Both the position numbers and the translations under genes were made by a program. Below, piece by piece: positions 47,347 through 49,465 of a stretch of DNA of 64,000 nucleotides. Below the pieces are notes generated by a model. The model was not told the DNA's origin, ran no database searches, and saw only the letters and a list, made by a program, of their open reading frames with translations. Source of the DNA: Bdellovibrio sp. BCCA (GTDB lineage: Bacteria; Bdellovibrionota; Bdellovibrionia; Bdellovibrionales; Bdellovibrionaceae); contig NZ_JBBNAC010000001.1 in NCBI RefSeq assembly GCF_037996825.1, positions 3,472,001-3,536,000 of the forward strand. The letters are read 5' to 3'. Position 1 is the first letter of the stretch. Each line of letters starts with the position of its first letter.

Positions 47347-47380
47347 CTTAAAAAGATGAGGGCGCCTCTTGCAGGCGCCC
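47347..47380 (-). terminator. Terminator of the hibernation/BON operon
   Basis: On the minus strand GGGCGCC, a 7-base loop, GGCGCCC form a perfect stem followed by TCATCTTTTT, about 50 bases after the BON gene's stop. Confidence 0.8.
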
Positions 47381-47431: not shown

Positions 47432-47914
47432 TCAAGCCACCTCCTTGACTAGGGTTTCATCGGTTACAGTAACAGGGACTCTTCGGGGAGGGTCTTTAAT
47501 CTCAATGAAATTTAAGACATCCCGCACCCCGGAGAGCTCCCATGCCGATGCGACCGCCATCGCTTTAAGTCTTGGACGGTAAACTTCACCATCAAGTTTG
47601 ACGATGCCGTCGATCACTTCGACTTCGATATGCTCTCCGCCGATTTTGATCATTTCCGCCATTTGTGACTCAAGGATGTTGGTAATTTCCTCGTCCGTTC
47701 TATAATAATCTGCTGGAACTATGATTCGATCTTCCACGGCCCATACGCCTTCTGTGTCAGAGATCGCTTCCAGCGCTGCATTCTTTTTGTAGGAAGTGTC
47801 AACAAAGCCACTGACAATGACTACACTTCCACGGACGACGATATCAAGGTCAGCCATGCTTACTCTTTTATCCCATTTTATTCTGTCACGAATTTTTTTA
47901 AGAAGAGTATTCAT
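47432..47914 (-). CDS. Double BON-domain protein
   Basis: The 160-residue protein has two BON domains (residues about 5-70 and 75-140), seen as DIVVRGSVVIVSGFVDT and EVEVIDGIVKLDGEVY. BON domains bind phospholipids or act in envelope stress (as in OsmY), but this protein has no signal peptide, so it may act in the cytosol or at the inner face. AAGGAGC precedes the ATG. It lies 39 bases downstream of the hibernation factor gene and shares its transcript, suggesting a stationary-phase or attack-phase stress role. Confidence 0.9.
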   Translation of the reverse strand: MNTLLKKIRDRIKWDKRVSMADLDIVVRGSVVIVSGFVDTSYKKNAALEAISDTEGVWAVEDRIIVPADYYRTDEEITNILESQMAEMIKIGGEHIEVEVIDGIVKLDGEVYRPRLKAMAVASAWELSGVRDVLNFIEIKDPPRRVPVTVTDETLVKEVA

Positions 47915-47953: not shown

Positions 47954-48334
47954 TTAAGCCACTCCCTGAGATTCAGGAAGTGGTTCAAAGTTCAACATCG
48001 GGTCTCGTCTGTGATGTTGAGCTTTTTTAGAGGATCTTTTGCTAAGAATAACTTTCAATGCAGAAACCGTTTTAGCTACACACGCCTTAAAATTCTCATC
48101 GGTTTTACGCACTTTAATCACTGTGCGCATACGCGATGGTTTTAAGATGACCTCACAGATGTAACTAGGTTTGCGAGTGGACGTTCGGTGACGATCCGAT
48201 TCGACTCGCACTGTGAGGTGAGCACCACTATCATATTTGAAGAAGTCTTCAATGGCCCCTTCCACTTTTTCTAATAAATAAGCTTCAAGGTTCTCAGTTT
48301 TAGTGATGTCTCTGTAGTAGATGTCTGTTTGCAT
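47954..48334 (-). CDS. Ribosome hibernation factor (HPF/RaiA family, short form)
   Basis: The 126-residue protein matches short HPF/YfiA: an alpha/beta N-terminal domain with EAYLLEKVEGAIEDFFKY (quoted in part), HLTVRVESDRHR, and VEVILKPSR-like strand (CEVILKPSRMRTV). It binds the small subunit at the A/P sites and inactivates the ribosome. The C-terminal domain of long HPF is absent; a basic tail (SKRSSKKAQHHRRD) is present instead. AAGGAGGTAGATC precedes the ATG. A sigma-28-like promoter lies just upstream. Confidence 0.92.
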   Translation of the reverse strand: MQTDIYYRDITKTENLEAYLLEKVEGAIEDFFKYDSGAHLTVRVESDRHRTSTRKPSYICEVILKPSRMRTVIKVRKTDENFKACVAKTVSALKVILSKRSSKKAQHHRRDPMLNFEPLPESQGVA

Positions 48335-48359
48335 GATCTACCTCCTTGTTCTTTTCTTA

Positions 48360-48386
48360 TTATCGTTGAGAACAACAATTTCTTTA
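48360..48386 (-). promoter_or_regulatory. Sigma-28 (FliA)-type promoter for the hibernation operon
   Basis: On the minus strand TAAAG (48386-48382) and AACGATAA (48367-48360) are separated so that TAAA-N15-xxCGATAA holds exactly. This matches the FliA consensus TAAA-N15-GCCGATAA at TAAA and in six of eight -10 positions. The start of transcription would be near 48353, about 20 bases before the hibernation gene's ATG. Confidence 0.7.
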
Positions 48387-48422
48387 AATATATAATTTTG
48401 ATGGTATACTTAGGATAAAGTT

Positions 48423-48494
48423 ATGTATTCGCGCAGCTTCCTAGAGGAAACTCTAAAAGACTTCGATACTTACAGAGCTGCAGCGAAAGGCTAG
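48423..48494 (+). CDS. Possible 23-residue leader peptide upstream of the LysR gene
   Basis: ATG at 48423 opens a frame MYSRSFLEETLKDFDTYRAAAKG ending in TAG at 48494 (given in two parts: MYSRSFLEETLKD and FDTYRAAAKG). It lies after an extended -10 box TGGTATACT (48402-48410), so the mRNA would be leaderless or nearly so. A small stem AAGGCT/AGCCTT (48502-48520) follows before the LysR start. It may be a leader peptide or just non-coding 5' UTR. Too short to be sure. Confidence 0.3.
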   Translation: MYSRSFLEETLKDFDTYRAAAKG

Positions 48495-48541
48495 TTCCAA
48501 AAAGGCTCTGAAAAAGCCTTGTCATCAGGGGGTCTAGATTC

Positions 48542-49465
48542 ATGTTTAACTACAACCACTTATATTACTTTTATGTAACGGCAAAGCTAGGTGGCGTTAG
48601 TAACGCCGCAAAATATCTGCATATCAGCCAACCTTCATTAAGTTCACAATTAAAAGTTTTCGAATCTTCCATAGATCAAAAATTATTCGAGAAAAAAGGT
48701 CGACGCTTGCAACTCACTCCTGAGGGAGAACGCGCTTTTGCCTACTGTAAAAAAATTTTCGACGTCGCTGCCGAGTTCGCAGAAAGCTTACGCTCTCCAT
48801 CCGAAAAACAAAGCCAAAGAATTCGTATCGGTGTTACAGATCAAGTGGAGCGTCCTTTTATTGCCGATCTTTTAAGTCCACTCATTAAAGAACGTAAACG
48901 CGGTGTTGAAAAAACTTTTTTCGTAAGTTCTGCCCCTTCCGAGGATTTGATCAATCAATTGCGCAGTCAATCCATCGACTTGGTGTTAACAAATAAACCG
49001 ATTTACTCTGAAGATGTGAAAGAGTTTGCTTCCGCGAGTATGCCGGTGAATTTGCTTGTCTCAACACAAAATCTAAAAGAGTTGAAGATTCGCATTTCTA
49101 AGGGCACATCCGCTTTGGAATTTTTAAATGCAGTTCCGTGGGGACTCATCATCCCGTCTTACAAAATGAAATTGCGCCATGAAACAGATTTATTCTTTCA
49201 AGAAATCAAAGCGCGTAAAAAAGTCGTTTTTGAAAGTGATGTGATGTCTGTGGTGGGCCGTGCGATTATTGATGGCGCCGGTGTCGGCTTTCTTCCCGTT
49301 CCCTATGTTTACGACGAAGTAAAATCCGGAGTTTTAACAACCATTGGCCCTAAGAGTGGTTACTGGAAACACACGGTGTATTTGCTGGGAAGAAAAGATG
49401 CGAATTATGACGAGGTCGTCGAAGACGTTAAGAATAGCGTGAAGCGTTTGGAGAAAATGGTTTGA
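48542..49465 (+). CDS. LysR-family transcriptional regulator (NhaR-like)
   Basis: The 307-residue protein has an N-terminal winged helix-turn-helix (residues about 3-60; NHLYYFYVTAKLGGVSNAAK, quoted as NHLYYFYVTA...SNAAK, then LHISQPSLSSQLK) and a C-terminal periplasmic-binding-like effector domain (from about 90). The opening NHLYYFYV is close to NhaR, the sodium-responsive regulator of nhaA, but target and ligand are not deducible. It is divergent from the hibernation operon, so it could control that promoter region. A strong terminator follows. Confidence 0.92.
   Translation: MFNYNHLYYFYVTAKLGGVSNAAKYLHISQPSLSSQLKVFESSIDQKLFEKKGRRLQLTPEGERAFAYCKKIFDVAAEFAESLRSPSEKQSQRIRIGVTDQVERPFIADLLSPLIKERKRGVEKTFFVSSAPSEDLINQLRSQSIDLVLTNKPIYSEDVKEFASASMPVNLLVSTQNLKELKIRISKGTSALEFLNAVPWGLIIPSYKMKLRHETDLFFQEIKARKKVVFESDVMSVVGRAIIDGAGVGFLPVPYVYDEVKSGVLTTIGPKSGYWKHTVYLLGRKDANYDEVVEDVKNSVKRLEKMV

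Follow-up and report, generated by a model that had tools for sequence, protein, structure and literature searches.

A conserved CGATAAT promoter core and a proposed LysR operator upstream of an HPF-BON gene pair in Bdellovibrio

Introduction

Which sigma factor and which regulator control a short hibernation-factor gene and its downstream partner in a predatory bacterium? Attack-phase Bdellovibrio cells do not replicate, and their growth must resume soon after prey entry. FliA (sigma-28) is essential in Bdellovibrio (PMC5430801) and acts as a global attack-phase regulator, with a FliA-type box found on 66% of the mapped attack-phase promoters (PMC3627812). We analysed a 64,000-nucleotide stretch of the Bdellovibrio sp. 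BCCA genome (the window), for which a preliminary description had proposed that a sigma-28-type promoter drives a ribosome hibernation operon. The same description noted that FliA has roles beyond flagella. These are already published (PMC3627812), and what would be new, as a hypothesis, is the link between FliA and hibernation. Our literature search returned no description of ribosome storage by attack-phase Bdellovibrio and no report of this gene pair in the genus.

Results

The HPF-fold gene, here called HPF1, lies on the minus strand at 47954-48334 and encodes a divergent S30AE paralogue of 126 aa, whose HD100 orthologue is at 3,516,577-3,516,948 (minus strand). It scored 30.7 bits with Pfam PF02482 (S30AE; cut-off 23.7) and 22.8 bits with the equivalog model TIGR00741, below the cut-off of 40.9. 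Its sequence alone had no match in the PDB, but its AlphaFold model (mean pLDDT 76, low confidence in the final ~20 residues) matched solved HPF/pY structures with E values down to 3.6e-7. The best 30 PDB matches in this fold search were nearly all HPF/pY/RaiA chains, the top ones being ribosome-bound pY/HPF. Judged by the modelled fold, a role of HPF1 on ribosomes is likely. Its ribosome-binding site AAGGAGG is read directly at 48341-48347 of the minus strand, and GGAGG is kept in nearly all orthologues. The gene 39 nt 3' of HPF1 (47432-47914, minus strand) encodes an OsmY-like protein of 160 aa with two BON domains (Pfam BON, 89 bits in all), which scored 39.6 bits with the OsmY model, below its cut-off. 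The pairing is present in most genus members, and the two genes are probably co-transcribed. Behind the BON gene, an intrinsic-terminator-like hairpin (47350-47380, minus strand) has an 8-pair stem with 7 G-C pairs followed by TCATCTTTTT; one such hairpin was found vs. 1.3 expected in shuffles.

The flagged site, TAAAGAAA-N11-AACGATAA, was read directly on the minus strand from 48386 to 48360 (genome coordinates 3520360-3520386), 25 nt 5' of HPF1. In full it is TAAAGAAATTGTTGTTCTCAACGATAATAA, with TAAAG at 48386-48382 and CGATAA at 48365-48360, and the minus strand through the HPF1 start codon at 48334 reads TAAAGAAATTGTTGTTCTCAACGATAATAAGAAAAGAACAAGGAGGTAGATC-ATG. The letters, the strand and the TAAA-N15 spacing were thus as first described. 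A scan for TAAA-N15-NNCGATAA sites, of the kind that the preliminary description had proposed, found 29 matches in the 4.01-Mb genome (~0.5 per 64 kb) vs. 13 for the reversed-pattern control. Twenty of them lie within ORFs and six, the flagged site among them, directly 5' of a gene. Because of these counts, the string match alone is suggestive and not significant. A mismatch scan of whole genomes with TWAAG-N16-CCGAWA gave counts under the reversed control and was uninformative. The genome consists of two contigs, the second of which (G000:C2, 209 kb) is possibly a plasmid.

FliA of the BCCA genome is encoded at C1:3224281-3224952 (TIGR02479, 281.8 bits; cut-off 189.6), and FliA is intact in all eight genomes tested. 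B. bacteriovorus HD100 (G006; 1.6 Mb examined, L155-L234) served as the standard for FliA promoters; its c-di-GMP-I riboswitch lies at the published merRNA coordinates (PMC3627812). The three small RNAs reported to be FliA-driven (PMC3627812) have TAAAG-N16-CCGAAG, TTTAG-N16-CCGAAA and TAAAG-N16-CCGTAA just 5' of their starts in HD100. With at most one mismatch, TWAAG-N16-CCGATA was found 22 times in HD100 sense promoter windows vs. 3.7 expected. The N15 form occurred 12 times in sense vs. 3.1 expected, with a nearly equal count of 11 in antisense. FliA-type sites of Bdellovibrio favour a spacer one base longer (N16) than the E. coli consensus. The N15 spacing of the HPF1 site, described earlier as exactly that of the flagellar sigma factor, is the E. 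coli spacing, whereas the HD100 enrichment peaks one base longer.

A weight matrix trained on HD100 sites reads CCGA(T/A)A; its first C is present in 38 of the 40 FliA-like sites, although these were chosen by the matrix itself. On this matrix the BCCA site fits best at N15 (11.7; 6.2 at N16), compared with 13.6-21.6 for the training sites, which are likely FliA sites, and -2.1 to 10.3 for the relatives' sites at the E. coli spacing. Among the relatives, orthologues with TAACG score 5 to 9 and the most diverged about zero or below. Of the sense promoter windows 4.7% score at least 11.7, and of the antisense ones 1.9% do.

The FliA promoter of APsRNA3 (L116; HD100 561,814-561,841), found in 15 of 24 genus genomes, and its orthologues carry a palindrome, GGACC-NN-GGTCC, in the spacer and touching the -10, which may be the site of a second regulator. 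APsRNA5 (L122, HD100) is a very abundant attack-phase RNA that is not marked as FliA-driven in PMC3627812; TCAAC-N15-CCGATAAG begins ~50 nt 5' of its listed 5' end, and this listed end may be processed.

Conservation of the HPF1 site was measured as Fitch changes over 21 Bdellovibrio orthologues on a tree of 4.5 substitutions per site. The -10 core CGATAAT (48359-48365, minus strand) showed C0 G2 A0 T0 A0 A0 T0 and is identical in 19 of the 21, while the close-by spacer drifts (mean 4.1 changes) and the upstream flanking intergenic background averages 6.2. Since six of seven positions have zero changes vs. about four to six at their neighbours, we take CGATAAT as a real promoter element, on the strength of its conservation and not of the string match. 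The CGATAA core is lost in L045 and L050, further in L053, and in L054 outside the genus. ATAAT is kept, even where CG is gone, in 22 of 23 loci paired with a LysR gene, and also in G013. The base 5' of C48365 changed five times and never to C, so that the -10 starts as ACGATA or GCGATA, once with T, and none of the 21 orthologues has the leading C of CCGATA. G48364 is lost in G017 and G018, both with intact FliA. G017 also retains both APsRNA3 FliA promoter boxes, a limited control because the pattern search favours intact sites. Because the trailing T is invariant, the -10 also reads as a sigma-70-type GATAAT, and the core appears to be a compromise of the two motifs, CGATAA and GATAAT.

The claimed sigma-28 -35, TAAAG (48382-48386, minus strand), showed T0 A1 A1 A4 G4. 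Its fourth base is A in 9 orthologues, C in 10 and G in 2; TAAA is thus kept in 9 of 21, and most have TAA(A/C). Poor conservation of both boxes in relatives had been named as a result that would refute the sigma-28 claim; the -10 core is well conserved, and the -35 is kept in part of the orthologues.

Divergent from HPF1, a LysR-type regulator of 307 aa is encoded at 48542-49465 on the plus strand (Pfam HTH_1 and LysR_substrate above cut-off). Its best NCBIfam model is NhaR (PRK11062), at 79.4 bits below the cut-off of 219. This neighbour is kept across the genus and in two other genera (g10 and g13). Between the genes, TTATATATTT (48386-48395, minus strand), the near half of a proposed LysR operator, has zero changes in the 21 orthologues and takes in the T with which the claimed -35 starts. 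It is the most conserved element of the region and had been overlooked, as had the LysR gene. Each of the 23 loci where a LysR orthologue is adjacent has an exact TTATATATTT, and its distance is nearly constant; the loci of g10 and g13, where LysR identity is 42-48%, are among them. In L038 the contig ends before the LysR gene could be seen, and the motif is there too. In G013, alone in the genus in having HPF-BON and no LysR orthologue (best match 31%), the motif is degraded with two mismatches and TTAAG and GATAAT are kept. The paralogue L056 has neither LysR orthologue nor motif, and G004 lacks all three genes, namely LysR, HPF1 and BON. G028, with a LysR relative at 30-33%, has the motif only in a one-mismatch version. 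This co-occurrence includes few independent losses, with one informative locus (G013) besides the paralogue L056. The exact motif occurs in 2 of 741 HD100 upstream windows.

The far half of the proposed operator (48400-48428, no strand assigned; consensus TATATAACTTTAA-CTAA-TATGTCAT) has a mean of 2.0 changes per site vs. 6.2 in the flanking background, and the TTTA in it and that in the near half lie 31 bp, ~three helical turns, apart. Together the halves form a 43-bp AT-rich block (48428-48386) that is common to the upstream regions of HPF1 and LysR and, counted from the start predicted at ~48352, covers about -76 to -34. LysR recognition and activation sites usually fall within such a placement. 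By eye, a dyad (AAAT-N5-ATTT) and a direct repeat of 31 bp can be made out in the block, and no clean LysR box of the T-N11-A type. TTTAAA-N16-TATACT (48383-48410, plus strand; 9/12 in a consensus scan), which lies within the conserved block, may be the promoter from which the LysR gene is transcribed, but is weak alone because three promoter-like sites were found vs. 2.0 expected. WTTATATATTT-N22-ATAAT has no second exact site elsewhere in the genome, and thus no wider regulon of the HPF1 promoter is indicated. In the LysR leader region, 48490-48534 holds a partly conserved hairpin-like AAGGCT...AGCCTTTTT that by eye is terminator-like on the minus strand.

The genome also encodes a canonical hpf at C1:814809-815156. 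Upstream of it (G000:C1:814700-815156, L235; HD100 794,698-795,120, L244) stands TCATCTTT-N11-RCCGATAAG. Of the 14 genus loci that could be read, 13 have this box, those of G004 and G013 among them, and G012 lacks it (L247 is unreadable). It scores 10.5 to 15.6 at N15 on the FliA matrix where it falls within the scored stretch, and HD100 has a second copy ~530 bp upstream. The spacer half CTTTRGTC is conserved as well, which plain sigma-28 would not need. From its sequence, the canonical hpf box appears to be a better candidate for a sigma-28-like promoter than the HPF1 site.

Discussion

We propose, with a probability of roughly 0.6, that the HPF1-BON operon is under the control of the divergent NhaR-like LysR and is transcribed from the conserved CGATAAT promoter. 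Transcription would begin at ~48352. The LysR protein would bind the predicted 43-bp operator, switch the operon on and control its own gene, in response to a signal that is probably ionic, osmotic or starvation, a guess from the resemblances to NhaR and OsmY. HPF1 would then occupy ribosomes and block translation. On sequence grounds LysR control appears to be a better-supported mechanism than the sigma-28 claim, although the AT-rich invariance could instead reflect an UP element or the site of another regulator. The sigma factor may be sigma-28, but we lean towards sigma-70 or another.

On the preliminary description, TAAAG-N15-ACGATAA would be the site from which FliA transcribes HPF1-BON in attack phase, and swimming cells would thereby store inactive ribosomes; LysR would then be secondary, and is compatible with this. 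We regard that account as less likely than not. It draws on the CGATAA intact in 19 of 21 orthologues, on FliA in every genome tested and its box on most attack-phase promoters, and on a score that few promoter windows reach, and it would account for the constraint on C and G that sigma-70 leaves unexplained. What stands of it is the conserved core 5' of HPF-BON. The leading C so common in the matrix-picked HD100 sites is absent in all orthologues, TAAA is found in fewer than half, the spacing is one below the preferred N16, the G is lost in G017 and G018 despite their FliA (and in G017 despite its APsRNA3 boxes), and sigma-28 does not call for the invariant T that follows GATAA. Since the resemblance to sigma-28 is real but imperfect, swimming may at most be linked to ribosome storage. 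A broader version is less probable still: FliA would place both HPF1, through its degenerate CGATAAT, and the canonical hpf in the attack-phase programme, with LysR input on HPF1, and motile predators would store ribosomes until prey entry. We consider it unlikely.

An ordinary sigma-70 promoter, with a GATAAT -10, a TT(A/T)A-type -35 at 17-18 bp and an AT-rich UP element, would make FliA and LysR irrelevant. TTTAAA-N18-GATAAT matches at 9/12 in the consensus scan, and the ATAAT that outlasts CG agrees with it. However, T is never found at the first -10 position of the orthologues, C48365 does not vary and G48364 hardly does, UP elements need no identical 10-mer, and the motif tracks the LysR gene. 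We find this account doubtful. When trained on promoter windows of HD100, a sigma-70 matrix drifted until ~50% of its hits were false, and we excluded it from the evidence. That there is no promoter at all and the resemblance is due to chance is very improbable: the string is not rare in the genome, but chance does not fit a core that is unchanged at six of seven positions beside drifting neighbours.

If FliA or LysR does control either hpf, ribosome storage would become a part of the life-cycle switch of the predator that genetics can address. The LysR-HPF-BON module that we favour offers a concrete regulator, a proposed operator and a testable signal.

The module can be compared with known systems. 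With the FliA attack-phase promoters of HD100 (Karunker 2013, PMC3627812), the HPF1 site shares the genus, CGATA in the -10 and, roughly where it would be expected, a -35 rich in T-A-A; unlike them it lacks the first C in every orthologue and is one base shorter than the preferred spacing, and both its trailing T and the AT-rich block upstream are invariant. As in divergent LysR systems such as those of NhaR and OxyR, the genes stand back to back with a conserved intergenic block, the proposed operator, at about -76 to -34, and the pairing extends across genera; here, in contrast, the target is an HPF-BON pair, a clean T-N11-A box was not seen by eye in the block, and the LysR is only NhaR-like (79 of 219 bits). 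HPF1 shares the S30AE domain and the beta-alpha-beta-beta-beta-alpha fold with the short hibernation factors HPF, YfiA and RaiA, but, unlike the canonical ones, it falls below the TIGR00741 cut-off and has a separate canonical hpf in the same genome. In Legionella, also a biphasic bacterium, hibernation factors have been shown experimentally to be under RpoS (PMC12977618). There, too, they are tied to a life-cycle sigma factor, whereas in Bdellovibrio the factor would be FliA rather than RpoS, and the tie is a predicted one.
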